A stretch of 64,000 bases of DNA from Rubricella aquisinus (GTDB lineage: Bacteria; Pseudomonadota; Alphaproteobacteria; Rhodobacterales; Rhodobacteraceae). The first letter of the stretch is position 1. Each line of letters opens with the position of its first letter. Location: the NCBI RefSeq assembly GCF_014199445.1, contig NZ_JACIJS010000005.1:62001-126000 (forward strand), in the 5' to 3' direction. Shown here piece after piece: positions 1,187 through 24,470 of the stretch. The notes under the pieces are model-generated. The model was given only the letters and a program-made list of their open reading frames with translations. It had not been told where the DNA came from and did not search any database. A program made the position numbers and the translations under genes.

Positions 1187-1199
1187 AGCGCCCTCCGAA

Positions 1200-2793: not shown

Positions 2794-3179
2794 GCGGCGA
2801 GGCTCCAATTGTCGACCCGGTCACGCGTGACGCGGATGGTTTGGACGCTGTCCGAAACATGGGTCGTGTCGGTCAGATGGGCATCGGGGCGATAGCTGCC
2901 CTGAAGGGTCATAGTGATCGCGCCCGATGCCGAGCCCGAGATCCCGACATTGGTCACATCAAAGCGCGGCTCCCAGCGATCAATCGCCTCAGCCACTGCA
3001 ACATAGAGCGCGAGCAGGTTCTCATCATTCATCGGCGCATCGACCAAGGCTGGCACATCGGACCCGAACTCCCGCCGAAAGACGCGGGTGTTGATCCGTG
3101 TGCCCAAAATGGTCTGGAGGCTTTGCGCGACATGCGGCCAGCCCTCGATGGCCGCACCGGTTTCGGGATCGAGGTCCAT
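2790..3179 (-). CDS. Baseplate protein gpW / gp25-family lysozyme-like protein
   Basis: This 129-residue protein belongs to the GPW/gp25 family. Visible features are the QSLQTILGTRINTRVFRREFGSDVP segment, an Arg-Glu-rich motif typical of gp25-like wedge proteins, and AEAIDRWEPRFDVTNVGI, which forms the conserved beta strand. Members are structural baseplate wedge parts despite the historical lysozyme label. The C-terminus is extended and has a tryptophan shortly before the end. The ATGA overlap with gpJ suggests coupled translation. Confidence 0.87.
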   Translation of the reverse strand: MDLDPETGAAIEGWPHVAQSLQTILGTRINTRVFRREFGSDVPALVDAPMNDENLLALYVAVAEAIDRWEPRFDVTNVGISGSASGAITMTLQGSYRPDAHLTDTTHVSDSVQTIRVTRDRVDNWSLAA

Positions 3180-3185
3180 CGCGGA

Positions 3186-3395
3186 TCAGTCTTCTGCGGT
3201 GGTGTCGGAGGCAGGCACCTTCGCCGCCCGTTGGCCACCGGAAGGTTTCAACTTTAGGCCCGTCCCGTAGGGTGGCAGGTAGTATTTCGCCTGGGCCGGG
3301 GTCATCGCAAGGCACGCCCCCACGGGCCGCGACACCCCGCCGATTTCACGCGCGATGATGACTTCATAGTCCTGAGTTTCGGTCGATTTGCTCAT
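3186..3395 (-). CDS. Small phage protein of unknown function
   Basis: A 69-residue protein lies between the PAAR protein and gp25. The start was placed at MSKSTETQ, which has GGAG six bases upstream. The sequence shows EVIIAREIGGVSRPVGACLAMTP and then a Pro/Tyr/Lys-rich stretch, with an acidic end. No family was recognised. Baseplate operons of related phages often carry a similar small gene here, so a small structural or assembly role is possible, but this is inference from position. Confidence 0.6.
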   Translation of the reverse strand: MSKSTETQDYEVIIAREIGGVSRPVGACLAMTPAQAKYYLPPYGTGLKLKPSGGQRAAKVPASDTTAED

Positions 3396-3417
3396 CTCAT
3401 TCTCCATTCGATTTTGA

Positions 3418-3708
3418 TTATCCCCCGGCGAACACATCGCCGGACCCGCCTGCCACGCTGGATCCACAACTCACCGGGTCACCGACACGCCCAAGCGCGC
3501 GCCCGTTGACAAAGACGGTGGCCGAACCGCTGGCGAGCGCGCCCCCGTGGCAAATGGGTGTCGGATCGCAATGCACCGCCCAAGCATCGCCCAACCGGTG
3601 GGCAGGCATGGCGTTGACGAACACATCGCCGCTCCCCCCGGTGCTCGCCCGTGGCGGCCATGGCCCGTGGCCGGTGCAGGCATCGCCTGCGCGCGTGACG
3701 GCGGGCAT
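3418..3708 (-). CDS. PAAR-domain tail-spike tip protein
   Basis: This 96-residue protein is a nearly pure PAAR domain: repeated short beta units (GDVFVNAMPAHRLGD, ATVFVNGRALGRVGDPVSCG, GSGDVFAGG), with PAAR-type Pro-Ala-His and His/Cys residues that could bind the tip metal ion. PAAR proteins cap the gpV spike of contractile phages and type VI secretion systems and sharpen it. The gene directly follows gpV, fitting a spike and tip pair. Its composition is Gly- and Asp-rich like the family. Confidence 0.88.
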   Translation of the reverse strand: MPAVTRAGDACTGHGPWPPRASTGGSGDVFVNAMPAHRLGDAWAVHCDPTPICHGGALASGSATVFVNGRALGRVGDPVSCGSSVAGGSGDVFAGG

Positions 3709-4184
3709 CAGTTCAGGTCGATCCGGTCCGCCACGAGGTGCGCGTGATCCCCCCGCAGCGTGAGGGAGGTCGTGCCCACCCGAAACTCCATCTCATTCCC
3801 TCCATCCTTCACCGTCACCGAGGCAGGTCCAACAGAGGCGATCACATAGGCATCCGGCGCTTGCGACGGGCGGGCGTTCGCTGCCGAATTGAGGCTGCCG
3901 ATGATCACCGCGTCATGCAGATCCCCGGTCTCTGAGACGATCACGACCTGCTGTCCGACCGACAAAGGGATATGGGTCCGGTTGGCCCCTGCCGATTGCT
4001 CAACCCATGGGATCGGTCCGGTCAGGAACGCCGCCGCCCCCCCGGAGAGTTTCACCCGCGCCAAACCCCGGCTGGCATCGACCTCCCTAACGACCCCGAT
4101 CCGAATGCTTGCAGCAGCGCGCCGTTCCAACTCGGCGATCCGGTATTGCAGCGCGTCGATGATTTGCTCCAGCGACATGCTCAT
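3708..4184 (-). CDS. Baseplate assembly protein V (P2 gpV-like spike)
   Basis: This 158-residue protein has the gpV layout: a short N-terminal helix (LEQIIDALQYRIAELERR), an OB-fold-like beta domain (IGVVREVDASRGLARVKL, then GPIPWVEQSAGAN and LSVGQQVVIVSETGDLHDAVIIGSL), and a C-terminal beta segment that would form the trimeric spike. The PWV and GDL...A-V-I-G-S motifs are typical. It pierces the outer membrane, capped by the PAAR protein encoded next. It overlaps the upstream gene by four bases. Confidence 0.87.
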   Translation of the reverse strand: MSMSLEQIIDALQYRIAELERRAAASIRIGVVREVDASRGLARVKLSGGAAAFLTGPIPWVEQSAGANRTHIPLSVGQQVVIVSETGDLHDAVIIGSLNSAANARPSQAPDAYVIASVGPASVTVKDGGNEMEFRVGTTSLTLRGDHAHLVADRIDLN

Positions 4185-4951
4185 GCCCCGTCAAGCGTGA
4201 CGCCTGTCACCGACAGATCGAGCGGCAGGCCGTCAAAGGAATAGAGTTTCAGCGCCCGTGCGTCAGAGGAGGCCATGCCCATGAGACGCTCGAACGCGGG
4301 ATAAAGGCTCGCGCCGGGTTGCCCCAGAAGCGCGCTGAAACGCTCCGCCTTCGCCGCGTCCTGATCCGACAGCAACGCCAGAAAGCGCCGCCACGGACCG
4401 GTCTCACTCAAGGCCTGATCCTGAATGGGATCGGCGAACACATCCACGGTCAGCTTCGTTTGACCAGCGGCAAGGCGCACATTCTCCGCAGCACTGCTGG
4501 AGCGCACATGATCTTTTGACACATAGCCCTTGATGAACCCGGCAAAGACCTGAGACCACGCATTATCCGGGTCCGTGAGCGTGCGCCCGATCTGCACCTC
4601 CAGCACATCCAAGATCGCTTCAAAATTGGCATCGGTGGCCGGGAAGCCTTCGATGATCTCAGCAGCCCCAGTGTTTTTGTTCGTCTGCGCCATGGTGAGC
4701 GCCACACCGCAATTGAACACGATCTCCACCCGCCCATTGGTGCGCAGCCCGGTCTGGCTCAAATCCTGTGCCCGCGCCGCATCGGTATAGACCGCGATGA
4801 ACGGCTTTTGCTGATCGCTGCGCAGCTGGCCGTTCGTGGTCTGATCGATGGCGGAGATTTGGCTGTCGAGCACATTCTCCCCAACCAGCGTGCCACCAGC
4901 CTTCAGCGCCTGAACAGCCGCGATCCGCAATGCCATCATTGTCAGCGACAT
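4181..4951 (-). CDS. Phage structural protein of unknown function (neck/tail region)
   Basis: This 256-residue protein starts MSLTMMALRIAAVQAL and lies between the neck genes and gpV. It has a mid region TNGRVEIVFNCGVALTMAQT, and a helical C-terminal half. Similar-length proteins at this place in mosaic alphaproteobacterial myophages are annotated only as hypothetical phage proteins. Its overlaps with both neighbours show that it belongs to the structural operon. A tail-terminator or neck role is possible, but no diagnostic motif was seen. Confidence 0.6.
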   Translation of the reverse strand: MSLTMMALRIAAVQALKAGGTLVGENVLDSQISAIDQTTNGQLRSDQQKPFIAVYTDAARAQDLSQTGLRTNGRVEIVFNCGVALTMAQTNKNTGAAEIIEGFPATDANFEAILDVLEVQIGRTLTDPDNAWSQVFAGFIKGYVSKDHVRSSSAAENVRLAAGQTKLTVDVFADPIQDQALSETGPWRRFLALLSDQDAAKAERFSALLGQPGASLYPAFERLMGMASSDARALKLYSFDGLPLDLSVTGVTLDGA

Positions 4952-5322
4952 CAGTTTGCATCTCCCAGATCGCAGATCAGGCGCAGGTGAGAGCGATCAT
5001 CGACCTGCATGATTTCAAAAACCGGCGCGCCCTCGCGATCCAACGCAACAACCTTGTCGCCCTTTCGAAGCGCGAGGTCGGGATAGGCGGTGCGGTCCAA
5101 GCGCAGAAACCCGCCCGAGGACGCGAGGCCGGAGCGGGCGGCATTGGACCGCCCAAAGCTGACCTGCTCAATGTCCCGCACGCCGGTCCGGATCAGTGCC
5201 ACCAGTTCCAATGGCGCGCGCTCCGGGTCTGGTGCGGCCCCTCGCATCGGCAAATGGCGGACCTGCTCAGCCCAAATCTCATCCACCTCGCCGACCAGCT
5301 CGTCTCGCAACGCACGGTCCAT
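4951..5322 (-). CDS. Phage head-tail joining / neck protein (gpFII position)
   Basis: A 123-residue protein with a helical first half (RALRDELVGEVDEIWAEQVRHL) and a beta-rich second half (KGDKVVALDREGAPVFEIMQVDDRSHLRLICDL), the general shape of small beta-barrel head-tail joining proteins such as lambda gpFII. It occupies the place that gpFII has in lambda, two genes after the major capsid protein. No sequence motif proves the family, so the role is inferred from order and fold impression. It is coupled to both neighbours by short overlaps. Confidence 0.55.
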   Translation of the reverse strand: MDRALRDELVGEVDEIWAEQVRHLPMRGAAPDPERAPLELVALIRTGVRDIEQVSFGRSNAARSGLASSGGFLRLDRTAYPDLALRKGDKVVALDREGAPVFEIMQVDDRSHLRLICDLGDAN

Positions 5323-5654
5323 CAGGTGGCGGACGCGGCGGGCGGTGCGAGATCAAGTGCCGCTGTCGGCTCCTTATCCGCTGCATCGGTGCCGGGCGTT
5401 GTCGTCTGACCAGACGGCTCCTCCTGTGCGGGCGGCGTTATCTGCGGCTCTACCACCTTGTCCGCCACCTCGGCTTTCTTTGGCGCATCACAGGCGACCG
5501 CAAAGCCTTCATGGATCACATGATCCGCATATGTCTCGGGCAACAGGACGGGCTGTCCGGCTTGCATTTTTTCGTTGGATGTTTTGCCGATCACCTCCGC
5601 CGGGACGGTCGTGTTCGTGCGAAAGGCGACCCATTTCTTTTTCTTCTGTGCCAT
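5322..5654 (-). CDS. Small phage head protein (gpFI position)
   Basis: A 110-residue protein directly downstream of the major capsid gene. The start was set at MAQKKKKW, four codons into the longest frame. The first half has a beta-like segment (WVAFRTNTTVPAEVIGKT, then GQPVLLPETYADHVIHEGFA); the second half is Pro/Ala/Glu/Thr-rich low complexity. In lambda this place is held by gpFI, a packaging accessory protein with a flexible part. The similarity is positional only. Confidence 0.5.
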   Translation of the reverse strand: MAQKKKKWVAFRTNTTVPAEVIGKTSNEKMQAGQPVLLPETYADHVIHEGFAVACDAPKKAEVADKVVEPQITPPAQEEPSGQTTTPGTDAADKEPTAALDLAPPAASAT

Positions 5655-5759
5655 ATGCGGCTCCATGCTTGATTGAGCTCCAAGACGCCGATCCGGGCGC
5701 TTGGCGATGCCATTACCGGCCCGGCAGGCTGTGCCGGGCCGTCACGTCATTGCGCCGCC

Positions 5760-6764
5760 TTACGGGTTGGCGATGGTCAGACGCCGCAACGCCGCCGGGC
5801 GGGTCGCGAGGTTGATCCAGTTCGATTGCGAGTCGAGGTGCCGCCCCTTGCCATTGGCCATGGGATATTGCCTTGCATAGCGCGGCAGACCGATAGTGTT
5901 GACGGTCTCCTCATAATCGGCAGGGCCAAACCGCGTCAGATACATGCCCGGCACACCCACCGGGAAAAGCCGCGCCTCATCATCCGCGATATAAGCCGAG
6001 GCCCCGTTCGCAGCCTTTGCCCGGCGACCCGTCCGGTAGCGTTCAAACACCATGTCGCCAAATTCAAAGATACGCGGCACACCGCGCCGCAGCACCTCGG
6101 CAGCATTGGTATTGAGGAAGGTTTCCCGGACGACCTTTTGCATCCACATCTTTGAATGGAAGCTGCGCCCCGTCAGGACATGCAGATGGTCATAATCCAT
6201 GTCGAGATCGTCTTCGACGGAATGGGTCACGCCATCGAGCACCTCCCCCAGATTTGCCACATCCCCCGCGCCGATCCCGAGGTTCACCGGGGCGGGCACG
6301 GCGATGTCGAACCGGTCATAGAGGTTGTGCAGCACCCGCCCGGATTTCGAGATCACAAGCCCCTTGATCGCGCCGATCCGGGCATGCTCCAGCGTGTTGT
6401 CGATGGCGCGGGCATGTTGGGCAAGCTTTGCATCCACCCGCGCTTGCAAAGGTTCCAATTCATCTTCGCTGCCAAAGGCGCGCACGCCCTGCACTTCATC
6501 GGCGTTGACGCTGTCATTGATCTCAAAGTGATCGAGGTTGAACGGGATTTTGGTCCGCTTGCCATCGCCGACGGTGACACCCGGCGCGCCGCGCTCGGTC
6601 GGCTCAATGAGGTCCAGAACGCCGTTCTCTTCCTCGATATCGACCGTGGTGACGTTGACGCCATCCTCCTCGAAAATGCCAAGCTCGCCCAGCTGGCCGG
6701 GGACGAAAGGCTGATCGTTCAGCGCAGCGGTCAGCGCGATGACGGAAAATTCAGTTTCCCACAT
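5760..6764 (-). CDS. Phage major capsid protein E (lambda gpE family)
   Basis: This 334-residue protein is a lambda gpE-type HK97-fold capsid protein: N-terminal ALTAALNDQPFVPGQLGELG, the mid segment GVRAFGSEDELEPLQARV, and the C-terminal half with TGRSFHSKMW and YIADDEARLFPVGVPGMYLTRFGPADYEETVNTIG. It forms the procapsid shell. The start is MWETEFSV, preceded on its strand by an AAGGAGA ribosome site; a longer frame upstream is read in the decoration gene and is not used. The gene directly follows the gpD-like gene, as in lambda-type head modules. Confidence 0.92.
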   Translation of the reverse strand: MWETEFSVIALTAALNDQPFVPGQLGELGIFEEDGVNVTTVDIEEENGVLDLIEPTERGAPGVTVGDGKRTKIPFNLDHFEINDSVNADEVQGVRAFGSEDELEPLQARVDAKLAQHARAIDNTLEHARIGAIKGLVISKSGRVLHNLYDRFDIAVPAPVNLGIGAGDVANLGEVLDGVTHSVEDDLDMDYDHLHVLTGRSFHSKMWMQKVVRETFLNTNAAEVLRRGVPRIFEFGDMVFERYRTGRRAKAANGASAYIADDEARLFPVGVPGMYLTRFGPADYEETVNTIGLPRYARQYPMANGKGRHLDSQSNWINLATRPAALRRLTIANP

Positions 6765-8536: not shown

Positions 8537-10119
8537 GGCGCTGGCTCCGTCTCAATCACCTGCGGCTCTGAACGTGGCGCGTAGGGCGATTGCATCCCAG
8601 CCTCCACATAGCGCTGGTGTTCGCGGTGGCGCTCTTCAAACAGCGCATCCGCATCCACGCCCAGATCGCCCGTCTCAATGGCAATCGAGCTGGTGCCGTT
8701 CTGCAGCCGCTCCGTCGAGGCGCGGGCGGACTTTTGGTCATCCGCCGTGGGCTTCGCTGGTCCCTGCCAATTGGCAAGGCACACGCTCGCCCGATTGGCC
8801 CGAAACGCGCGGTAGCCACCCTTGAAGGGGATGCGGCCCTCGCCGATCTCCTCATCGAGCCAATTGGCATAGATCATCTGGCACATCGGGGCCGCGATCC
8901 GCTCCCGACGGCGGGTGACCACGGGCCAAAGCGATGCGCCCTCCATCCGCACGCTGGCATAGGTGGCGTCCGTGTAGTCCATCGTCAGCCCCCCATAAGA
9001 ACATCCAATCGCCCGCGCCGTGTCCCGCGCCAGACTGTTGGAGAAAGGCACGAAATCCTTGCCCGGCACGTTGGCGGTTTCCAGCGTGAGCTTTTCGCCA
9101 GGGCCAAGATGGGACACTTGCGGATCTCCACCCACGGAAATCCGGGTCGCCGCCGCGCGATCCAGTTTCGCGCCCAGAAAATCGAGATACTCCTTTCCGT
9201 AACCGATGCCGTCCTCACCGCCGACATCGCGCAACACTTCCAGCGCCTCATAGGCATCCTGACTGGGCGCATCGCTGGTCAGGGTGATGGCAAAGACCGT
9301 TTGCAAGATCGCCATTTGCAGCGTCGCATCATCCAGCATCTCTGCCTGAATATGTTTGCGAAACGCAGGGGCCAATTGCGAAATCCCCCGCACATCCTCC
9401 GAGTCGATGGGATCGAAGATATGCATCACCAAGGGCCGCCCATCGGCATCAAAAGCTGCATAATCCCGCTTCTGCTTCAGCCCGCTGACCGCAGTTTCAA
9501 ACCGATAAGATACGGCGCGGCCATTCTCGTCATGCCGCACGCCTTGGAACAAACCTTCATGCTGGCTTGTATCCTGCACCAACCGGCTGGGCGGATAGAG
9601 CCGCAGTTTCGTGCCCGTGCCCAGCCCGTATTTTGCGCGCCGATCCGCAGCAAAAAAGTCAAAAACCCCCGTCACTTCCCCATAGGCGATGTACCACCGC
9701 AGCCCGATATCGACCATCTGCGGGATCGTGAGCTTGCCTCGCATGTCGCATTCGCGAGCGTTCCGGGAATAGGCCGTCCAGCGCCGTTTCACGATCCTGA
9801 TCCAGTCCGCCTTTTCCTTCTCATCATAGGATAGGCCCGTCAGGTCGGGATCGGGCGACAACGTCAATCCGACCCCGACCGTGTCCGCGACCACCTGATC
9901 CGTCGCCCCTTTCAGTCGCCCGGAATTCTGGATCAGGTCCATCGCCAGTCCCGCCGCCCGCCGCCACGAATAACGAATGTCATCCCGATGGCTGGTCAGC
10001 GGCGCGATCCGCGAGGCGACGACGCCGCTCGGCGTGTCCCGCAGATAGCGCGCCGTCATCCCGCGCGTGGGACTTGCAGCCCGCAAAGGCGTTCCGTCCG
10101 GTTTGATCAGCCCGCTCAT
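8533..10119 (-). CDS. Phage portal protein (lambda gpB family)
   Basis: This 528-residue protein is a lambda-type portal: N-terminal RYLRDTPSGVVASRIAPLTSHRDDIRYSWRRAAG, the mid motif EVTGVFDFFAADRRA, HIFDPIDSEDVRGISQLAPAFR, and the C-terminal FVPFSNSLARDTARAIGCSYGGLTMDYTDATYASVR, which is strongly conserved in this family. It forms the dodecameric ring through which DNA enters. The start was set at MSGLIKPDG, whose ATG overlaps the terminase stop by four bases; an in-frame GTG six codons earlier (10137) is the alternative. Confidence 0.92.
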   Translation of the reverse strand: MSGLIKPDGTPLRAASPTRGMTARYLRDTPSGVVASRIAPLTSHRDDIRYSWRRAAGLAMDLIQNSGRLKGATDQVVADTVGVGLTLSPDPDLTGLSYDEKEKADWIRIVKRRWTAYSRNARECDMRGKLTIPQMVDIGLRWYIAYGEVTGVFDFFAADRRAKYGLGTGTKLRLYPPSRLVQDTSQHEGLFQGVRHDENGRAVSYRFETAVSGLKQKRDYAAFDADGRPLVMHIFDPIDSEDVRGISQLAPAFRKHIQAEMLDDATLQMAILQTVFAITLTSDAPSQDAYEALEVLRDVGGEDGIGYGKEYLDFLGAKLDRAAATRISVGGDPQVSHLGPGEKLTLETANVPGKDFVPFSNSLARDTARAIGCSYGGLTMDYTDATYASVRMEGASLWPVVTRRRERIAAPMCQMIYANWLDEEIGEGRIPFKGGYRAFRANRASVCLANWQGPAKPTADDQKSARASTERLQNGTSSIAIETGDLGVDADALFEERHREHQRYVEAGMQSPYAPRSEPQVIETEPAP

Positions 10120-12086
10120 CGTGTTCTGTTTCTCCACTTTGACCGCGACGGTGACCGGGTCGAGGGTGCTGACGCGCCATTGCTTTGTTCCGCGTCGCCT
10201 GCGCTGGTTTCGGTTGGCCGCGTTGCCATCAGCAGGTCTTCAAAATCGGCCTGCACATCTTCGGGCGGACATTCGCGCTCCGCCATCAGGCGGTCCCACT
10301 CACTATCGGGCAGGTTCCTGACCCCAAGCCGAATGGCCGCGGCTTCCGCCTGAAGATGCGTGTCCAAGCCTTCGTTGTTCTGGTTGGGGTCTTTGACCCA
10401 CAGATACCGGGTGAAGCCGGATTTCGCTTTCTGCGCCTTGCGGCTTTCCGCTGTGAGCTGGCGATAGAACTCATCATCGAGCCCCTTTGGCAGCGCGATA
10501 AAGCCGCGCTCTTCGGGATCTGTTTTCTTCAGGTTCCGATAAAGGCCCATCTTCAACACCGATGAGGCGAAGTTGAAGAACCGCTTGGAGTAACGCACGA
10601 TCTTGCCGCGCCGGTTGCGCTCTTTCTTCACCTGCGCCAGCAGCGGTGCCCCTTCCGGATGCACCCCGCGCACCATGATCACTCGCGAGGACGGATGCTT
10701 GCGCGCCCAATCCCAGACGTCTTCGGTATACGCGTTGCCGTCGATGGCCAGCATGTCGATCTCGATCTTGCGGCCATAGGCGTTGCGAAAGCCCTGTTTC
10801 ATCAGGCCATTCAGCTTCGCCTGGCATTGCTCATCGGAGATATGTCCGTTGAACACGCCATATTCGACAATCGCCCGGCGCTTGTTCTGCCCCCATGCGA
10901 CCAGCTGCCATTCCACCCTATCCCCTTGGCAATCAACGCCGCAGGTCAGCATCGGAAAGCCTGCCGGGATCGTGCCATGGGCATAATCCGAGTCCGCTGC
11001 GCGATCCCGGATGTCCTCCCAAGGCGGCGCTTCGCCCAAGACGCGATAGGCTTTGCCGACCACGTCATTCCAGAAGGTCTGCTCTTTCGGCGGATCACCT
11101 TTCGCGGCCAGCCATGACCGGGCAATCCGCTCAAAGGATTGCAGTGGCGAATAGGCAGACCACAGATAGAAGGAGCGGTGATACCGCTTCTGTTTCGGGT
11201 TGGAGGCTCGCCATTCCACACGCGGAATGATCTCCATCCGGTGATGATCCTCAATCGCGCAGCCGCAGTCCGGACCTTGGCATATGAAATGCGCGCGCTC
11301 CGGATGCTCCTCATCCAGATTTTGCAGCATATTCTCCCAGTCCAGCACCTGCATGTATCCGCAATGCGGACAGGGGATGTAGGGGAACTCCTGCGATCCT
11401 GCCTCAAAGTTGTTGGTGATCCGGCACCCCGGAATGACCATGGGCGTCGATATCTTAAATATCTTGGCGAACTCGCGCCCTTGGCTGCGGCTATCCGCTT
11501 GGTTTTCCGGATCGCCCGCGCTGTTCATGTCCCATTTGGCAAGGTCATCCTGAACCTGCCGGGACATCGACACCTGACTGAGCGAGGCTGGCGAATTCGC
11601 GCCGGAGATCAGAATGGCCCCGCGCCCGTCCCGGCGCTCCTTGTAGAAAACCGAGTCCTGTCCATCCCGCGCCTTCATCGGGAAGATGCGGCGCAGTGCC
11701 GAGGTGCCTTTCAGCATCGGCTGCAGCTTCATCTTCGACCAGCGCCGGGCGTTCTCCTCTGTCGGGTGGACATAGAGGAAATCGCCGGGGTCCATGTCCA
11801 TCGACCCGCCGGTGAAGATATTGGCCAGCACCGTCCCGCCGAGCTGCGCCGACTTCGACAAGGTCACCACCCGACACTGATCATCGGGGGAGAGTGCGCG
11901 GAGGATTTCATCAAAATAGCGAAACCGCTGCCGGTTATACGGCCCGGAGAATTCGCTTTCCCGCTCGGAGAACTCGATATTCTCCTCCGCCCAGCTCAGA
12001 TAATCGACCGGCGGCGGCGGGTCGAACACCTCCGCCAGCACGTCGTGCAGCATCCATTCCGCATTTGTCACCGCGACATCCAACAT
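10116..12086 (-). CDS. Phage terminase large subunit (GpA family)
   Basis: This 656-residue protein is a GpA-type terminase. The N-terminal ATPase has a deviant Walker A (SKSAQLGGT near residue 78) and the conserved DDLAKWD segment. A zinc-ribbon-like module CPHC...C...CGC follows near residues 238-277. The C-terminal nuclease part begins at LTCGVDCQGDRVEWQLVAWG and includes AIDGNAYTEDVWDWARKH. It cuts concatemers and drives DNA into the head through the portal. The last ~25 residues are low complexity. It is coupled to the small subunit by ATGA. Confidence 0.93.
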   Translation of the reverse strand: MLDVAVTNAEWMLHDVLAEVFDPPPPVDYLSWAEENIEFSERESEFSGPYNRQRFRYFDEILRALSPDDQCRVVTLSKSAQLGGTVLANIFTGGSMDMDPGDFLYVHPTEENARRWSKMKLQPMLKGTSALRRIFPMKARDGQDSVFYKERRDGRGAILISGANSPASLSQVSMSRQVQDDLAKWDMNSAGDPENQADSRSQGREFAKIFKISTPMVIPGCRITNNFEAGSQEFPYIPCPHCGYMQVLDWENMLQNLDEEHPERAHFICQGPDCGCAIEDHHRMEIIPRVEWRASNPKQKRYHRSFYLWSAYSPLQSFERIARSWLAAKGDPPKEQTFWNDVVGKAYRVLGEAPPWEDIRDRAADSDYAHGTIPAGFPMLTCGVDCQGDRVEWQLVAWGQNKRRAIVEYGVFNGHISDEQCQAKLNGLMKQGFRNAYGRKIEIDMLAIDGNAYTEDVWDWARKHPSSRVIMVRGVHPEGAPLLAQVKKERNRRGKIVRYSKRFFNFASSVLKMGLYRNLKKTDPEERGFIALPKGLDDEFYRQLTAESRKAQKAKSGFTRYLWVKDPNQNNEGLDTHLQAEAAAIRLGVRNLPDSEWDRLMAERECPPEDVQADFEDLLMATRPTETSAGDAEQSNGASAPSTRSPSRSKWRNRTR

Positions 12087-12769
12087 CAGGCATCAAACTC
12101 CAGTTCTGTGGTCACCTCCGTCGGTGTTTGTTTGGCCAGCGCGCGCTGCTTCATCGTGGCCGTCTTGCGCACAGTGCGAAATTCGTTCTTCAGCATATGC
12201 AGGGCATCGCGCTGCGGGATATCGAATTGCGAGGCCAGCGCCGCCGCAAAATCCGTCAATGCGCCTTCAAAAATCTGCATCATCATGCCTGCCACGCGCG
12301 TCATCTGTTCGCGGGCGTCATCAGCGGACATCAGCTTGCCACCGCGCAACGCTTCTTCTGCCGCTTGCAACCTGTTGCGGCGCAGCTGCTCCTCGAGCTT
12401 GGCCCGCTTCAGCTGGTCCTCAATAGTATCAGCGAGCGGCAGCACCGGATTTACCGACGGCCTATCGGGATCCGCGTCGCCGCGTTCGGTCGAAACCGCG
12501 CTTCCCATTGGCTGCGTCGGCGCAGTCGTGTGTACCGGACTGACGGTGGTTCGCGTTGCGATCCCATTGCCAAGCGACTGCCCGATATCCCGGTTGCGCC
12601 GAACCTGTTCGCGCGCAGCCTCAAGGTTGATCTTCGCGTTCCGACCTTCCCCAACGATAGCGTCCGGCGAGATGATCCCCCGCTCAATCCAGTTGCTGAC
12701 CGCAGACTTTCCAACGCCAAGCGTCTCGGCAAACTTCGATTTGGTGACCAGCACCCCATCCATGTTCAC
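12086..12769 (-). CDS. Phage terminase small subunit (Nu1-like DNA-packaging protein)
   Basis: This 227-residue protein directly precedes the large terminase. Its N-terminus is a winged-helix DNA-binding segment (LVTKSKFAETLGVGKSAVSNWIERGIISPDAIVGEGRN), like lambda Nu1, which recognises cos. A charged helical middle (EDQLKRAKLEEQLRRNRLQAAEEALR) and a C-terminal part likely bind the large subunit. The frame opens with a GTG; an ATG two codons later is equally plausible. The overlap with the large subunit supports complex assembly during translation. Confidence 0.82.
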   Translation of the reverse strand: MNMDGVLVTKSKFAETLGVGKSAVSNWIERGIISPDAIVGEGRNAKINLEAAREQVRRNRDIGQSLGNGIATRTTVSPVHTTAPTQPMGSAVSTERGDADPDRPSVNPVLPLADTIEDQLKRAKLEEQLRRNRLQAAEEALRGGKLMSADDAREQMTRVAGMMMQIFEGALTDFAAALASQFDIPQRDALHMLKNEFRTVRKTATMKQRALAKQTPTEVTTELEFDA

Positions 12770-12914
12770 AGCCCTTCCCGGAGTTCACACACAAGTTCAC
12801 AAAGCCCCGCCGAGTTCACGCTTTCAAAAACCCGTCTGACTGGCGAACCCTCGGGCGCTATCCGCACCGCGTGCGCCCGATCCGGGGTACGGTCCCTAGT
12901 CATTTGCGGGCGAT

Positions 12915-13487
12915 CTAGAGGCCCAAAAGCCGTCCAATCTCGTGATCCAAGCGGCGTGGCAGATGCTCCGTCACCGTTTCTTCGAACACCGCAGCACTCG
13001 CGCCGTCCACCATCTCCGCTGGGATCACGACACCGGATTTGAGCTTTTCAATACCAAGCCGTTCCGGTCCGATCCGCTGGAACACATGCCCACCCATGTT
13101 CAGAGCAACGCGCCCACGGCTGAAACTGCCGCCCTTCATGAAGCTGTTCTCATAGAGCTGCCGCTGCCCCCGCACGAAAGCGGTCACGCCTTTCCGCGTC
13201 TCATGCGGCTTGAAGTATTTGAGCGATACATCCCCGCCCGATGCGGACAGGGAATACCGAAGATCGTCCCAACTGGATCGCTTGACCTTGATCGCCTTGC
13301 GGATGGTCTTTTGTGGCAGGCCAGTCTGTTTGGACAGGCTGCGAATGACCTGCGTGCGGGCCATACTGCCCGTGCGATTGATCGCGCTGTTCATTGCCTT
13401 GGGTGCGTCCGTTCCCAATGCTCCGAGCATGTTCTCAAACCGCGCCAAGTTCTTCACATCAACGTCGCCAATCTTGAGCATACCCAT
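12915..13487 (-). CDS. Prophage minor tail protein Z-like
   Basis: This 190-residue protein resembles the minor tail Z family (lambda gpZ group): AMNSAINRTGSMARTQVIRSLSKQTGLPQKTIRKAIKVKRSS is the hallmark segment, followed by a beta-rich middle and FMKGGSFSRGRVALNM. In lambda, gpZ acts in tail completion and joining. Here it lies before the terminase genes instead of after the head genes, so the late module is rearranged compared with lambda. It appears to be the first gene of the leftward late operon. Confidence 0.75.
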   Translation of the reverse strand: MGMLKIGDVDVKNLARFENMLGALGTDAPKAMNSAINRTGSMARTQVIRSLSKQTGLPQKTIRKAIKVKRSSWDDLRYSLSASGGDVSLKYFKPHETRKGVTAFVRGQRQLYENSFMKGGSFSRGRVALNMGGHVFQRIGPERLGIEKLKSGVVIPAEMVDGASAAVFEETVTEHLPRRLDHEIGRLLGL

Positions 13488-13629
13488 CCCCGAGTTCGGT
13501 TGAGCGCGGGCCGCTCGGTGGAGCCACGATGAACGGGCTCCAGCGCCGCACTGTACGGTGAATGTTGCCGCGCCCCCCTCACTGGATTTACAGTGCTCTG
13601 AGATTCAAAGGTTTTGACGGAAAGAATTG

Positions 13630-13950
13630 ATGCCAAATTCAAGCAAAAGAACCAACCAACAGAAACTCTTGGTGTTTTTTATGTTCTTGGCTATTGGGGC
13701 GGGAATTATCACGGCGATCATTGAGCATGTATGGTTGGGTGGCGTAATTGTTGGAGAGCGGATCGAGGATGGACGAAGTTTTGTTCAAATCCGGGAGAAC
13801 AGAGGCACCTGGGTGGAGGTTAGCAATTTCACTCTGGTAGTATTTCAATGGGCTAAGCGCATTAGTTTTGCCGGAATACTCGGTTTAGTCTCGATTTCTT
13901 TATGGTCATGGCTAAGGTACGGCCACTTGCCCACAGTCTCTGATGAGTAA
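13630..13950 (+). CDS. Small two-pass membrane protein, candidate prophage moron
   Basis: A 106-residue protein is encoded against the direction of the flanking late genes. It starts at an ATG with GGAAAG upstream; a TTG codon just before it could also serve. Two membrane segments are visible: KLLVFFMFLAIGAGIITAII near residue 13 and RISFAGILGLVSISLWSW near residue 78. Between them is a charged soluble part. The DNA is clearly more AT-rich than its neighbours. Position, strand and composition fit a lysogenic-conversion (moron) gene; no family was recognised. Confidence 0.6.
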   Translation: MPNSSKRTNQQKLLVFFMFLAIGAGIITAIIEHVWLGGVIVGERIEDGRSFVQIRENRGTWVEVSNFTLVVFQWAKRISFAGILGLVSISLWSWLRYGHLPTVSDE

Positions 13951-14000: not shown

Positions 14001-14034
14001 AAAAAAGGCCAGTCGCGGGTTGCCCGGACTGGCC
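14001..14034 (-). terminator. Intrinsic terminator after the secreted-protein gene
   Basis: On the minus strand GGCCAGTC and GACTGGCC form a perfect 8-bp stem with a 12-base loop, followed by a run of six T. It ends the transcript of the small secreted-protein gene and also stands before the late operon. Confidence 0.85.
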
Positions 14035-14057
14035 AAGTTTCAATCGAGTGTGGTGGA

Positions 14058-14408
14058 TCAATGCGTGATGTCAGGCGGGACGACGTCAGCGAATGCAATG
14101 CCATCGGGCTGCGCGATCTGCCAGTGCAAACCCGGCTCGCCACCGGGATGACTGACGCGCCAGACGGTCGCCGGAACGGTGTGGCCTTTATCGATCAAGC
14201 GCAGACTGGTGTCCGGCGTCGTGAGTTTGGGCGCGTGGATTGCTGCCACCGCGTGCTTGGCGTCCAATTCGATCATCAGATCGGCATCGACGCTCAGATC
14301 GAAGGCCGGGGTAGCTTCAAAAAACAGCGGGTCCGCGTGGTGGGCAGACGCGACGGATGCGATCATCGCACCGAGCGCCAGAATGCCGGTAAAGATCAGT
14401 GTCTTCAT
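14058..14408 (-). CDS. Small exported protein of unknown function
   Basis: A 116-residue protein with a classical signal peptide: MKTLIFTGILALGAMIASVA, then an ASA-H cleavage site near residue 22, giving a mature protein that starts HHADPLFFEA. AGGAG lies at good spacing before the ATG. The mature part contains ELDAKHAVAAIHAPKL and DKGHTVPATVWRV, so it is probably a small beta-rich periplasmic protein. It is bracketed by terminators on both sides, so it looks like an independently transcribed cassette within the prophage. No lysis or spanin feature was seen. Confidence 0.65.
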   Translation of the reverse strand: MKTLIFTGILALGAMIASVASAHHADPLFFEATPAFDLSVDADLMIELDAKHAVAAIHAPKLTTPDTSLRLIDKGHTVPATVWRVSHPGGEPGLHWQIAQPDGIAFADVVPPDITH

Positions 14409-14450
14409 ATCGTTCTCCTGTGTCCAAAAGTGGGTTTGTCCCTCTCTCGC

Positions 14451-14493
14451 AAAGAAAAAGGGCTGACCTTCGCAATCACGCGATGGCCAGCCC
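14451..14493 (-). terminator. Intrinsic terminator 2 upstream of the late operon
   Basis: Reading the minus strand, GGGCTGGCC and GGTCAGCCC pair over eight of nine positions, with an inner TCGC/GCGA stem, and are followed by TTTTTCTTT. It would stop transcripts coming from the NusG-like gene before they enter the secreted-protein gene. Confidence 0.75.
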
Positions 14494-14541
14494 AAGTCCA
14501 ACAGGGAGGATGTCTCTGCCCAATCAAGCCAGTGACAACAT

Positions 14542-14570
14542 AAAAAAGGCCCGCGCTTTGCAGCCGGGCC
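14542..14570 (-). terminator. Intrinsic terminator 1 after the NusG-like gene region
   Basis: On the minus strand GGCCCG and CGGGCC form a stem around a TGCAAAGCG-type loop, followed by six T. It is the first stop signal met by transcripts from the NusG-like gene. Confidence 0.8.
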
Positions 14571-14601
14571 AATTGACGGAGTAATCCTGTACGCGATCTA
14601 A

Positions 14602-14648
14602 TGGCATTCAATATGCCAAAATCACAATGCGCCATGCCAATCGGCATG
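14602..14648. promoter_or_regulatory. Two adjacent dyads with a shared TGCC half-site
   Basis: TGGCAT-N5-ATGCCA (14602-14618) and CATGCC-N4-GGCATG (14633-14648) are perfect six-base inverted repeats that use the same half-site in opposite arrangement, with centres about 30 bp apart. They lie upstream of the late operon and could bind a dimeric regulator. The repeats are seen; function is inferred. Confidence 0.4.
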
Positions 14649-14773
14649 TGCCCCACCTACTCGGTTTAACTGCATCGCACTTACTGTGCTTCCGTCAGGG
14701 ACTTGGTATTAGTGGTATTCCACCCTTAACTCGTTCTTAATTTACGCGTCAATCCCCTTAACAATTCGGCGGG

Positions 14774-15445
14774 TCATTTACCACCATCTGGCGTATCGGC
14801 GATCAGGAGGTCGCTTCGGATTTGTGCACAAATCTCTCCCCCCAAGATATCCAGCGCGGCCTTCACCGTTGGACCGCTGACATCAACAACCCGGAGGCGG
14901 ACACCATCAAGCGGTCCAGCGATAACGCGAACGAGGTCGTTGGGTTTGAACTCAACCCCAGACTTCAAGTAGCGTTCGCATTCCGGCGAAAGCATCCCGC
15001 CACCCCATTGCCGCATCAGCTGCATCACGCGGGCTGATGGTATTTCCACCGGGCGTCCACCTGTGCCCATCACACCAGTCACCACGTCCAAGTCCATCAG
15101 GTGATCCCAGCGGCTCCCCCCAATTGGCCATCCAACAAACAGCCAATCGACAAGCAGTGGCTGAGCTACCAATGCCTTCTCAGGGGTAAATCGGTTCTTG
15201 CGCCGAAGCACCTTCTTCACCGGCAAAAACACCTCGAACCCCGCCCGTCGCAACAGGTGCTCCGGGAGGAACACCGCTTTGCCCGTTCCGTCCACGCGCC
15301 GCTTTCGCATCCGGCCCTGACGATCCCGAAAGGTCTCGAATTCCCCGCCGATCCGTATCGTTTTGATGCCGCCAACCTGCTTGCGCTTCACCCGGCAGGC
15401 AAACCATTGCATGTCCTGTGCGGTTATCTCGCCCATCATGCTCAT
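14774..15445 (-). CDS. Phage NusG/RfaH-like transcription elongation (antitermination) protein
   Basis: This 223-residue protein has the NusG layout: an NGN domain starting QWFACRVKRKQVGGIKTIRIGG, with AGFEVFLPVKKVLRRK and VDWLFVGWP in the usual NusG order and VTGVMGTGGRPVEIPSARVMQLM closing it, then a KOW motif (FKPNDLVRVIAGPLDGVRLRVVDV). An insertion in the NGN part makes it longer than host NusG (~180). The start ATG overlaps the previous stop (ATGA); a longer frame lacks a ribosome site. Phage-specific NusG paralogues are expected to modify RNA polymerase. It precedes three terminators that guard the late operon. Confidence 0.8.
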   Translation of the reverse strand: MSMMGEITAQDMQWFACRVKRKQVGGIKTIRIGGEFETFRDRQGRMRKRRVDGTGKAVFLPEHLLRRAGFEVFLPVKKVLRRKNRFTPEKALVAQPLLVDWLFVGWPIGGSRWDHLMDLDVVTGVMGTGGRPVEIPSARVMQLMRQWGGGMLSPECERYLKSGVEFKPNDLVRVIAGPLDGVRLRVVDVSGPTVKAALDILGGEICAQIRSDLLIADTPDGGK

Positions 15446-18501: not shown

Positions 18502-18702
18502 TCAGACGACTTCCCGCATCGGCTCATTCTCCGCCATGTAGCTACGCACACGATCTGCAACTGCCATTGTTGGGCTTGAACTGCCATCAACCCACGCGTC
18601 CCATGTCGACCATTTCGCATTAATTGCGGCGCGCAACACCGACTGGGGCGACCGCTCTGCCCGAGACGAGAAAGCTCTAATTTCTGAGATGAACTGTTCC
18701 AT
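18502..18702 (-). CDS. Cro-like repressor
   Basis: A 66-residue helix-turn-helix protein transcribed away from cI. ERSPQSVLRAAINAKWSTWDAWVDGSSSPTMAVADRVRSYM is a short XRE/Cro-type fold. The ATG lies at the expected RNA start of a promoter with -35 TTGCAT and -10 CATATT (17-bp spacer), so the mRNA may be leaderless, and no Shine-Dalgarno site is seen. Cro-like proteins compete with CI at shared operators and favour lytic growth. Three operator copies lie immediately upstream. Confidence 0.75.
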   Translation of the reverse strand: MEQFISEIRAFSSRAERSPQSVLRAAINAKWSTWDAWVDGSSSPTMAVADRVRSYMAENEPMREVV

Positions 18703-18709
18703 GCGACGC

Positions 18710-18787
18710 AATATGGGGAAACTACCCCACTTATGCAAGGGAAACTTCCCGATAGAACGGCTTACTTGGATGGGGCAAAATCCCCAT
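18710..18787. promoter_or_regulatory. cI/cro intergenic operators O1-O3 with divergent promoters
   Basis: Three 16-bp dyads of the form TGGGG-N6-CCCCA are present: 18714-18729 (perfect), 18737-18752 (AAGGG...CCCGA, weaker) and 18771-18786 (perfect). The cro promoter (TTGCAT at 18733-18738, AATATG complement at 18710-18715) overlaps O1. A cI promoter (-10 CAAAAT at 18776-18781, weak -35 TAGAAC) overlaps O3. Both start sites would fall at their ATG, so both genes may be leaderless. Confidence 0.75.
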
Positions 18788-19459
18788 ATGGAAAATGAAC
18801 AGCTCAATGAATTCGTGCGCGGTCTCAAAATGATCATGGAAACTGAGGGGCGAAAGATGAAGCCGACCTCTTTGGCCGCTGGCATGGGCGAGTCTGGAAT
18901 TCGGGATCTTATTCGAAATAATTCCGCACCAAAGGTTTCGAACGCCTACTCAATTGCACAAGCTATTGGCCGCTCTGTAGATGAAATAATTCGCATCGGT
19001 ATGAATGGGCATTATCATCGCAATGACGAACCGCTACCCAGCATCGCTGTTGCCGGAAAAGTTGGCGCTGGCGCAGAGGTCGAGCTTTGCGATGCTTACC
19101 CAAAAGGTGGCGGCCTCTACCGTATCGCGTGCCCACCCCAAATCTCACCAAATGGTGTCGTTGCAGTAGAGATTGAGGGTAATTCCATGGAACCCGCGTA
19201 CGAAGACGGGGATATACTATTCTATAGCCGTGATACCCTTGGTGTTCCAACAGAAGCGATAGGCAAACGATGCGTCACTGAAGACGCCAATGGCATGGTC
19301 TGGGTCAAACTCATCCGCCGCCGCAGCGGTCAGCCCGATGGGCTTTTCGACCTAATCTCATTTCACGCAGATACACCACCGATATACGACATGGCGCTTA
19401 AATGGGCCGCACCAATAAAGATGCATTTAGGACGTGAATTCGCAGTAACAGTAGGATGA
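18788..19459 (+). CDS. Phage repressor CI-like (XRE + S24 LexA/peptidase)
   Basis: This 223-residue protein has an N-terminal helix-turn-helix (SLAAGMGESGIRDLIRNNSAPKVSNAYSIAQAIGRSVDEI) and a C-terminal S24 peptidase domain with the catalytic Ser in GNSMEPAYEDGDILFYSR and downstream GKRCVTEDANGMVWVKLI, where Lys is the expected base. Cleavage would occur after RecA activation. The start MENEQLNEF was chosen because it matches the predicted RNA start; earlier in-frame ATGs lie inside the operators. It probably maintains lysogeny by binding the TGGGG-N6-CCCCA sites. It overlaps the next gene by four bases. Confidence 0.88.
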   Translation: MENEQLNEFVRGLKMIMETEGRKMKPTSLAAGMGESGIRDLIRNNSAPKVSNAYSIAQAIGRSVDEIIRIGMNGHYHRNDEPLPSIAVAGKVGAGAEVELCDAYPKGGGLYRIACPPQISPNGVVAVEIEGNSMEPAYEDGDILFYSRDTLGVPTEAIGKRCVTEDANGMVWVKLIRRRSGQPDGLFDLISFHADTPPIYDMALKWAAPIKMHLGREFAVTVG

Positions 19460-20079
19460 TTGATATGGATAGAGAGGATATGGCGCGGAACGGCAGGTTT
19501 TCGGGAAAAGCGATCTCAGATAGGCAAATGACTGAGCTTATCGGATTAGCGAGAGGACTAGTCGCCGACAATGAACTAAACGATATGGAGATTGAGTTTC
19601 TACACAAATGGCTCGTTGCAAGCGACGCAGCGCACGCAAACCCAATGATTGGCCAACTGCTCGAACGCATACGCGATATCTATGCAGATGGATTTGTTGA
19701 CGAAGAAGAACGTGGCGACCTGACAGATACGCTCATCACGCTGTCAGCCAACGATTTCGAGACTGGTGAGATATTCAAGTCAACAACGCTTCCTCTGTGT
19801 GACCCAGCGCCAAACTTGGATTTTGAAGGTCAACGGTATTGTTTTACAGGTACTTTCACCTTTGGAAAGCGATCCGAATGCGAGAGAGCGGTGCAGAAGT
19901 ACGGTGCCACTACAGGGAGCCTTGCACAGAAGACCAACGTCCTCGTAATTGGAGAATATGCCACTGCGTCATGGAAACAGTCTTCGTTCGGAAACAAGAT
20001 CATCCAGGCTGCGGAATGGCGAAGTCAGGGAATACCGATATCTATCGTCTCGGAGCATCACTGGAGAAATTATATCTGA
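19456..20079 (+). CDS. BRCT-domain protein with TerB-like N-terminus, coupled to the repressor
   Basis: This 207-residue protein has two parts. Residues ~20-95 (TELIGLARGLVADNELNDMEIEFLHKWLVAS, then DIYADGFVDEEERGDL) resemble a TerB-like helical domain with acidic turns. Residues ~125-205 form a BRCT domain (RYCFTGTFTFGKRSECERAVQKYGATTGSLAQKTNVLVIGE... and ISIVSEHHW), like that in NAD-dependent DNA ligase. Its start overlaps the cI stop (ATGA), so it is expressed in the lysogen. A role in DNA-end or replication-fork binding, or in excluding other phages, is possible; nothing in the sequence proves it. Confidence 0.75.
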   Translation: MIDMDREDMARNGRFSGKAISDRQMTELIGLARGLVADNELNDMEIEFLHKWLVASDAAHANPMIGQLLERIRDIYADGFVDEEERGDLTDTLITLSANDFETGEIFKSTTLPLCDPAPNLDFEGQRYCFTGTFTFGKRSECERAVQKYGATTGSLAQKTNVLVIGEYATASWKQSSFGNKIIQAAEWRSQGIPISIVSEHHWRNYI

Positions 20080-23281: not shown

Positions 23282-23574
23282 TGTCTGAAAACCTGCCATT
23301 TACACCAGATACCCTGGCGCGCCGCTGGCATTGCTCCTCTGAGACGATCCGGCAAATGGTGAAGCGCGGGGATTTACGGGGCTTCCGAGTCGGGCGCATG
23401 TTTCGGATCCCGTACATCGAAGTCATGGAGCATGAACGATGCAAATCAACATTGGACGACTGCGCGGTGGATTCTGCGTCTATTGGACAGATCCATCAGG
23501 AAGACGACGGCGTTATCAGCTTGAGGCACGCACCAGAGCGGAAGCAGAACCAGAAGCCCGTGCGCGCTACCTGA
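23281..23574 (+). CDS. Excisionase-like helix-turn-helix protein
   Basis: This 97-residue protein has an N-terminal MerR-like winged helix: FTPDTLARRWHCSSETIRQMVKRGDLRGFRVGRMFRIPYIEVMEHERC. Such short proteins next to an integrase usually act as excisionases or directionality factors. The start is the ATG overlapping the previous stop (TGATG). Its 3' end overlaps the integrase start by 136 bases in another frame, an unusually long overlap; the true end may be functional only up to about residue 55. Confidence 0.75.
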   Translation: MSENLPFTPDTLARRWHCSSETIRQMVKRGDLRGFRVGRMFRIPYIEVMEHERCKSTLDDCAVDSASIGQIHQEDDGVISLRHAPERKQNQKPVRAT

Positions 23575-24470
23575 AAGAAACAGGCGGGCCGAAAGGTCTC
23601 ACTGTTGCGGCAATTTGGTGGGCCTATGTCGAGCACTTGGGCGACAAGCCCACCGCCCGAACAATGCGCCAAACGGGTAAGCCGGTTCTGGCGACATTTG
23701 GACTATTCCACCCAGAACAAATCACAACCGACGACTGCCGAGGATATCGGCATGAAAGGGTTTCATCGGGCCGAAAGCTCGGGACCGTCCATACCGAACT
23801 CGGGCATCTTCGGAGTGCCCTGCGGTGGGCTGTGAAAACACGGCTGATCCCATTCGCACCTCACATAGAAATGCCCCCGAAACCGGACAGCGATGTTAGG
23901 CCCATGACCGATGCGCAGATGCGTGCTCTGATCGAGGGATGTAATTCGCCTCACATCAAACTGGCCGTGATTCTGCTTTTGGCGACCGGCGCACGGGTCA
24001 GCGCGATTCTAGATCTGACTTGGGACAGGGTTGATATGGAGCGCGGCGTGATTGATCTGCGGCTCCCAGACGGCGTCACCCGAAAAGGCCGAGCCGTGGT
24101 TCCCATGAACCAAATGGCCCGCGCAGCCCTGCAGACGGCCTATCCCGCGCGCCTCACCAGCCACGTCGTGGAATGGTCCGGCAAGCGGGTCCATTCGATC
24201 AAAACCGGATATCGCAGCGCCCTGAAGCGAGCGAAACTGGACGCAGTAAACATCCACCAGATCAGGCACACGGTTGCTGTTCGCCTACTCTCTGCAGGAC
24301 ACCCGATTGAGATGGTGTCGCAGTTCCTCGGACACTCCAACACGGCCATCACGTACAAGACCTATGCCAGGTTCATGCCGAGCCATTTACAGGGCGCGGC
24401 AGACATCTTGAACTTCGATAGGTTCAGTGAACCAGAAACCAATTCGTACATGCGTTTGGCTTCAAAATAA
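23439..24470 (+). CDS. Phage tyrosine recombinase / integrase
   Basis: This 343-residue tyrosine recombinase has the full catalytic set: Arg in LATGARVSAILDL near residue 188, HQIRHT (His and second Arg) near 270, FLGHSN (His) near 294, and the nucleophile Tyr in AITYKTYARF near 303. The N-terminal ~90 residues are the arm-binding and core-binding parts. It ends 25 bases before the tRNA-Val 3' end, the usual place for an integrase gene relative to its att site. It inserts and, with the excisionase, removes the prophage. Confidence 0.92.
   Translation: MQINIGRLRGGFCVYWTDPSGRRRRYQLEARTRAEAEPEARARYLKETGGPKGLTVAAIWWAYVEHLGDKPTARTMRQTGKPVLATFGLFHPEQITTDDCRGYRHERVSSGRKLGTVHTELGHLRSALRWAVKTRLIPFAPHIEMPPKPDSDVRPMTDAQMRALIEGCNSPHIKLAVILLLATGARVSAILDLTWDRVDMERGVIDLRLPDGVTRKGRAVVPMNQMARAALQTAYPARLTSHVVEWSGKRVHSIKTGYRSALKRAKLDAVNIHQIRHTVAVRLLSAGHPIEMVSQFLGHSNTAITYKTYARFMPSHLQGAADILNFDRFSEPETNSYMRLASK

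Follow-up and report, generated by a model that had tools for sequence, protein, structure and literature searches.

A NusG-family protein in a prophage and a candidate late-gene switch laid out like that of lambda Q

To our knowledge NusG/Spt5 is the sole transcription factor family common to all life, and specialised NusG copies are known mainly from surface, toxin, antibiotic and conjugation operons. The early-to-late switch of phage lambda uses Q, a protein unrelated to NusG, and the late genes follow in the order Q, promoter pR', leader (194 nt), terminator, late genes. Q binds DNA by a helix-turn-helix between the -35 and -10 elements and narrows the RNA exit channel. In lambdoid phages the promoter is constitutive and the factor lets polymerase pass the terminator, as extracts of PMC6606751 and PMC7171158 describe. 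The prophage locus presented here resembles those of lambda Q and 21Q in the order of regulator, late promoter, leader, terminator and late genes, with the promoter recognised from sequence only, and differs from lambda Q in that the phage protein has the NusG fold and the leader RNA is folded and carries a near-invariant terminator hairpin, T1.

LoaP, a NusG paralogue of Bacillus velezensis, reads through the intrinsic terminator of a leader and requires an RNA hairpin to do so (PMC12691694, available extract). Common to that system and our locus are a NusG paralogue, a hairpin-bearing leader and a long operon headed by an intrinsic terminator; LoaP, however, serves antibiotic gene clusters and uses a hairpin with a UNCG loop, whereas the operon here consists of phage late genes, the folded leader is larger and the terminator loops are mostly GNRA. 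Our locus has the layout of lambda Q; in protein chemistry LoaP comes closest and, by analogy, favours the switch proposed below. RfaH and the NusG paralogues of plasmid tra operons are likewise specialised paralogues, each with one long operon, and rfaH-like genes have been reported on plasmids and prophages (PMC7593976, in excerpt). RfaH is recruited by the ops DNA element and has a fold-switching C-terminal domain, whereas the phage protein is modelled with a beta KOW, and the excerpted part of PMC7593976 describes no promoter-leader-terminator unit for the tra paralogues. GafZ, an antiterminator from Alphaproteobacteria, opens the phage-like structural gene cluster of the Caulobacter gene transfer agent, but it has a sigma-like helix-turn-helix and a putative site between -10 and -35, works with the host NusG and is not itself a NusG protein (PMC11150451, partial text). 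Among the titles and abstracts surveyed, in which subscription papers and preprints are mostly not represented, none has a phage NusG that acts on late genes.

Against this background a late switch operated by a phage NusG appears well supported by comparison of sequences. We propose that the prophage carries a late-gene switch arranged as Q - pR' - tR' is in lambda, a protein of the NusG family standing in for Q, and we consider this the probable reading of the locus. If it is true, phages have built an early-to-late switch from the NusG fold and an RNA partner, as lambda has with Q, and the promoter, leader, terminator and one protein would make a compact test system for how NusG paralogues beat intrinsic terminators.

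The prophage and its NusG-like protein

The window, by which we mean the whole 64-kb stretch of DNA analysed, is part of a 3.24-Mb genome and holds much of a prophage (Table 1). Its leftward early operon includes a CII-like gene and ends with the gene of the NusG-like protein. The packaging, head and tail genes lie beyond the three terminators T1-T3, where the sequence-only reading of this DNA had placed them: TerL is followed on the same strand by portal, protease and major head protein genes and, further left, by baseplate, tail fibre, sheath, tape measure and endolysin genes. As far as the endolysin gene the late operon spans about 23 kb. The interval from T2 to the neck gene holds two small ORFs, neither with a PHROG match, and the one on the minus strand has no Pfam match; ORFs resembling the latter by eye follow T1 in L009 and L211. 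It is probably inserted cargo, and the plus-strand ORF also looks like inserted cargo.

Table 1. Coordinates of the prophage features in the window
Feature	Positions	Strand	Remarks
Integrase	23439-24470	+	
CI-type repressor	18689-19459	+	
NusG-like protein	14774-15445	-	223 aa; NGN with basic insertion, then KOW
TTGTTAAG element	14757-14764	-	just upstream of the -35
-35 hexamer TTGACG of putative promoter	14747-14752	-	
-10-like hexamer TTAAGG	14724-14729	-	17 bases past the -35
Leader RNA, type A	14543-14717	-	ends in T1; inferred start site, about 170-175 nt
T1	14542-14570	-	bulged hairpin 14548-14570, GCAA loop, T-tract; strict scan
T2	14455-14493	-	intrinsic terminator, hairpin 14460-14493; strict scan
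Small ORF	14058-14408	-	between T2 and T3; signal-peptide-like start
T3	14001-14034	-	intrinsic terminator, hairpin 14007-14034, 3' of the small ORF; strict scan
Small ORF, opposite strand	13627-13950	+	between T2 and the neck gene
Neck / tail completion protein	12915-13487	-	first conserved late gene; phrog_27, 4.3e-33
Terminase small subunit (TerS)	12086-12769	-	phrog_57, 3.5e-18
Terminase large subunit (TerL)	10116-12086	-	survey query; phrog_15, 3.7e-165

Two observations may be recorded in passing. The gap between the neck and TerS genes (12770-12914, minus strand) contains four GTGAAC repeats, and L004 and L006 have CTTAAC repeats in the corresponding position; the stretch has the look of a cos site whose repeats would bind terminase. 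Directly 3' of the CI-type repressor gene lies a BRCT-domain gene (19456-20079, plus strand; PF00533, 24.2 bits against a cut-off of 21.3), which also matches phrog_3989, a family of unknown function, at 2.4e-50.

Judged by sequence profiles and a structure model, the last protein of the early operon is a member of the NusG/Spt5 family with both NGN and KOW domains, as the sequence-only reading had it when calling it NusG/RfaH-like. It matches the NusG family PF02357 with 28.1 bits against a cut-off of 22.2, the Pfam scan (E 0.01) returning NusG alone and no helix-turn-helix family, and the PHROG search returned NusG-type antiterminator families only, among them PHROG 6386 'transcription antiterminator' (1.1e-10), and no Q family. 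Among 50,697 phage records none was matched by the protein at E 1e-3. A second NusG of the same genome, on another contig (G000:C1), gives a stronger match (6.2e-28) and is the housekeeping copy, from which the window protein is divergent, with 35 of 174 aligned residues identical. A PDB search with a profile of the phage family matched NusG chains (best 3.3e-12), including NusG KOW chains such as 1nz9 (6.5e-8).

Modelling of the structure, proposed together with the original assignment, bore it out. With a pLDDT of 71.7 and a pTM of 0.57 the AF2 model is moderately confident; its residues 11-150 align in VIA-align with the NGN of RfaH, the best partner of this domain (Z 11.1, rmsd 2.4 Å, 101 residues), and residues 164-217 with the KOW of NusG (Z 10.0, rmsd 1.0 Å, 54 residues). 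A fold missing from the VIA-align list is no evidence against that fold. NusG and RfaH are also the top Foldseek entries, with query whole-chain TM-scores below 0.5 because the NGN and KOW domains are positioned differently. The C-terminal domain is predicted as a beta KOW, in a single model of moderate confidence that leaves room for a second fold state. Several NusG-like proteins of related loci have an extra cysteine-rich C-terminal tail (L007:6001-6867, L038:2628-3524, L039:7401-8276, L068:3844-4740 and L095:6727-7554), and in two of them the tail shows a weak resemblance, below cut-off, to the restriction alleviation protein Lar (L007, E 0.0074; L039, E 0.059).

Promoter-like element, leader RNA and terminators in related loci

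A search of viral contigs with an alignment of NusG-like proteins gave 31 loci, including the prophage of the window and two near-identical pairs, and a search with TerL only gave 72; the two sets are not independent, since many of the loci lie on the same contigs. In the relatives a conserved stretch runs from the stop codon of the NusG-like gene to T1, usually opening with TTGTTAAGGGG, then TTGAC, 17 bases and TTAACA. Promoter and T1 are found in this order in 29 of the 31 protein-found loci (28 by script and L206 by eye, the T1 of L206 being recovered independently of the eye reading by our shape finder in L230, on the same contig), and L205 and L207 have the NusG-like protein without T1. 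TTGAC is present in the expected 120-nt interval in all 28 T1-bearing loci, as against 9.25% of 5,600 random intervals of this kind, and TTAA follows at 17-nt spacing in 23 of the 28. The sequence of the spacer between -35 and -10 varies among leader types. The TTAAGG of the window is a poor match to the sigma-70 -10 consensus. We infer a sigma-70-type late promoter just 3' of the NusG-like gene; the TTGAC-N17-TTAA element and the leader, both between the gene and T1, had been missed in the sequence-only reading.

The TTGTTAAG element has one exact copy in the window, and most relatives have it in the corresponding position; a scan of nine relatives showed that several of them carry it at the late promoter and also, in inverted orientation, downstream of the neck gene. 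That it is an operator was considered and rejected, the exact copy being single in the window and the CI/cro region having none.

The leaders are of type A (8 loci), type B (12) or type C (11), with L203 of its own type. Type A, to which the window belongs, folds with 52 pairs and 95.3% of cells paired (7 of 8 loci aligned), and 13 pairs are changed on both sides, compared with 4.4 in shuffled alignments (reached in 0 of 500) and 1-3 in slid controls. For type B the fold has 54 pairs with 96.9% of cells paired (11 of 12 loci), and 20 pairs are changed on both sides, compared with 5.6 after shuffling (again 0 of 500) and 2-6 in slid controls. Covariation therefore supports the leader fold of both types, with the shuffle test inflated by the relatedness of the sequences and the slid control favouring the structures, since these were derived from the same alignments. 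Type C gave a poor common fold in RNAalifold (10 of 11 loci used; 26 pairs, 7 changed on both sides, without a shuffled control). The loci left out of the three alignments were L005 (A), L192 (B) and L207 (C), and the row of L194 in the type B alignment starts 12 nt late and overruns the end. Used as patterns on viral contigs, the type A core found 9 loci of which 8 belong (the exception is L291), and the type B core 16, of which 11 belong and five, L293-L297, match no phage protein used.

Leader type does not follow the protein, as near-identical NGN domains pair with types A and B. The idea that the KOW domain reads the leader was not supported: L046 keeps a type C leader although its KOW shares only 37-41% identity with those of L042, L052 and L060. 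Among pairs with NGN identity of at least 0.9, mean KOW identity is 0.83 in 15 pairs with the same leader type and 0.69 in 7 with different types, a correlation that is not telling because adjoining DNA is swapped together anyway.

Terminators were sought with a strict scan (hairpin of at most 36 nt, dG of -16 or below, stem at least 65% GC, TTTT). For the whole window it gave T1, T2 and T3 on the minus strand, no others there, and five terminators on the plus strand, compared with a mean of 1.85 on both strands together in 20 first-order Markov shuffles. A looser scan (dG of -12 or below, both strands) gave 104 candidates, so that only the strict terminators form an informative set, and the output of a consensus promoter/terminator scanner lacked T1, T2 and T3, the fold-based scans being used instead. 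The strict scan found no terminator on the minus strand over positions 1-6000 of the window and 20 kb leftward. The three minus-strand terminators that the sequence-only reading had placed after the NusG-like gene are thus exactly the strict ones of this strand, but its notion of a triple barrier held only in part: T1 is the conserved terminator, while T3 stands outside the conserved core and probably belongs to the inserted gene 14058-14408. In 21 of 26 related loci T1 is followed, before the neck gene begins, by at least one further terminator of variable sequence. T1 itself keeps its shape despite sequence change, with U-A or G-C as the loop-closing pair, a mostly GNRA loop (L202 excepted) and, in L206, a compensated stem pair. 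As a separate observation, a weak match to the SorY/SorX-like small RNAs of Rhodobacter covers 14453-14535 (minus strand) and ends in T2 (30.5 bits, far short of the gathering score of 111; E 0.0008), and another, below gathering, covers L038:3790-3871 (plus strand; E 0.31); both lie between T1 and the neck gene and have in common a CUCCCUGUUG stretch and the terminator.

The association of T1 with the protein was read from the TerL-found loci by means of the shape finder (5-6 bp, 2-3 bp, a loop of four bases, a single base bulging out on the 3' side and a T-rich tail), whose background is 12 matches in 292.7 kb of strand. A T1-type hairpin stands between gene and late genes in all 26 loci with a close NusG-like gene, and in none of the 8 long loci (those in which over 5 kb precede the neck gene) without one (Fisher P 5.5e-8, uncorrected for relatedness); among these eight, a distant match to NusG-like proteins is present in L238 and L254. 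The 46 TerL loci without a close copy are made up of these 8, 4 with the neck gene 2-5 kb in, 5 with it less than 2 kb in and 29 in which no neck gene was detected. Of these 46 loci, 17 have a neck gene, and a bulged hairpin occurs near it in 4: L218 and L237, which are cut off upstream, and L235 and L242, where the slot is taken by other proteins. Among 28 more distant NusG-like loci (L010-L037) the finder marks only L017, by its look a chance hit, and L018, a relative that has a real T1 and whose match falls into two frames; the unit is therefore not general to NusG paralogues. The T1 core alone was rejected as a marker, being a common terminator shape: genome contigs hold at least 119 such stretches, 6 of them with a NusG-like gene (L081, L090, L095, L131, L138 and L180), and viral contigs 32 loci, 20 with a NusG-like gene, 3 more with the neck gene only and 9 with neither.

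Proposed mechanism and alternatives

The association of hairpin and close gene, together with the conserved promoter-leader-T1 stretch, supports a NusG-based counterpart of lambda Q, which was the core of the sequence-only reading. That reading pictured a single early transcript meeting a triple barrier; a separate late promoter (-35 at 14752-14747) fits the data better. In the switch that we propose, the early operon would make the NusG-like protein and the sigma-70-type promoter just 3' of its gene would separately drive the leader RNA. Without the factor the leader would fold and the transcript would end at T1 (and T2). The protein would board RNA polymerase during leader synthesis, guided by the leader RNA, by the T1 hairpin or by promoter-proximal DNA, and would then ride the polymerase past T1, T2 and T3 into the late operon, read-through thus depending on the protein. 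Points against this switch are the poor -10 match, the leader types that do not follow the protein, the bulged hairpins beside the neck gene in four loci that lack a close NusG-like gene, the absence of T1 from L205 and L207, and the distant NusG-like matches in two of the eight hairpin-free long loci.

Could the protein instead act in the manner of RfaH, boarding on the early transcript and crossing the terminators, with the promoter after its gene minor or absent? The NusG-like gene does end the early operon, from which transcription would run on into the terminators, the NGN of the model is best matched by RfaH, and RfaH and the plasmid NusG paralogues are thought to serve their own long operons (PMC7593976, in its excerpted part). 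We nevertheless regard this mode as unlikely, given that every one of the T1-bearing loci has the TTGAC-N17 promoter and that the promoter-leader-T1 unit adjoins the late genes even where the NusG-like gene is 1.8 kb (L197), 2.5 kb (L201) or 3.9 kb (L209) away. Since the unit stays with the late genes in these three loci, it is most likely a cis-acting element of the late operon, whereas the protein would be trans-acting. A different reading takes the leader for a free-standing small RNA of the phage with T1 as its terminator, the late genes having another promoter and the protein countering Rho, replacing host NusG or the like. The leader is indeed conserved and folded with a terminator at its end, and small-RNA terminators often look like T1; a late promoter inside the neck gene or before TerS would be in keeping with this reading. 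The stretch scanned, from T1 to the neck gene, has no TTGAC in 25 of 26 loci (the exception is L208), and it measures only 36 nt in L190, 48 nt in L196 and 38 nt in L197, too little for a promoter. Taken with the company that the T1-type hairpin keeps with a close NusG-like gene, this makes a free small RNA highly unlikely in our view.

A structured leader with a terminator at its end would also suit a riboswitch-like attenuator sensing a signal of its own, the NusG-like gene being nearby by linkage only. However, no family of Rfam 15 covers the window leader at E up to 5 or the leaders of L038, L039, L042, L049 and L095 at E up to 2, the association survives kilobases of inserted genes, and the hairpin is missing from all 8 of the long TerL relatives that have no NusG-like gene close by, so we give this explanation very little credence.

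As for the NusG-based switch that we favour, we suggest tentatively that it may represent a new class of processive antitermination, in which a NusG paralogue is paired with a structured leader not described before, the last helix of which is both terminator and recognition hairpin, for the control of a whole late programme. Such a class would have arisen apart from lambda Q in phages of Rhodobacteraceae and rhizobia, its slot being exchanged with other regulators, for example phrog_9306.

Rhizobial phages and other occupants of the slot

Rhizobial phages appear, from their gene order and terminators, to have a similar layout, and the proposed switch would explain why 'transcription antitermination protein' is annotated just ahead of the terminase genes in several phages. 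Sinorhizobium phage phi2LM21, reached via TerL, has a 'transcription antitermination protein NusG' followed by a minor-tail/neck-type gene, TerS and TerL, phi3LM21, also a Sinorhizobium phage, has the same gene order, and in Rhizobium phage PPF1 a 'putative minor tail protein' comes after NusG and a pair of small ORFs. Neither NusG nor antitermination is mentioned in the main text of the paper on phi2LM21 (PMC5537653) or in that of a paper on temperate phage of Rhizobium (PMC8631192). In all three phages a terminator with a GAAA or GAGA cap lies 175-190 nt after the NusG gene, and L249 and Labrenzia phage vB_LagS-V1 have one with a GCGA cap; the one-base bulge is absent from the terminators of all five. 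In Bradyrhizobium phage ppBjS10J-1 there is a gene of PHROG 6386 and a terminator of another shape, then a phrog_2 terminase, which is of a different family, and a portal gene.

Other proteins occupy the slot in some TerL relatives. In L241, L242, L248, L251, L255 and L266 the gene just upstream of the neck gene belongs to phrog_9306 (unknown function, about 260-310 aa), a family that matched none of 14 control genomes, a negative that is uninformative as to its function, and the slot proteins of L279 and L235 are without a match. Terminators follow the phrog_9306 gene in several of its six loci, and from their position both this family and the slot proteins of L279 and L235 are candidate late regulators.
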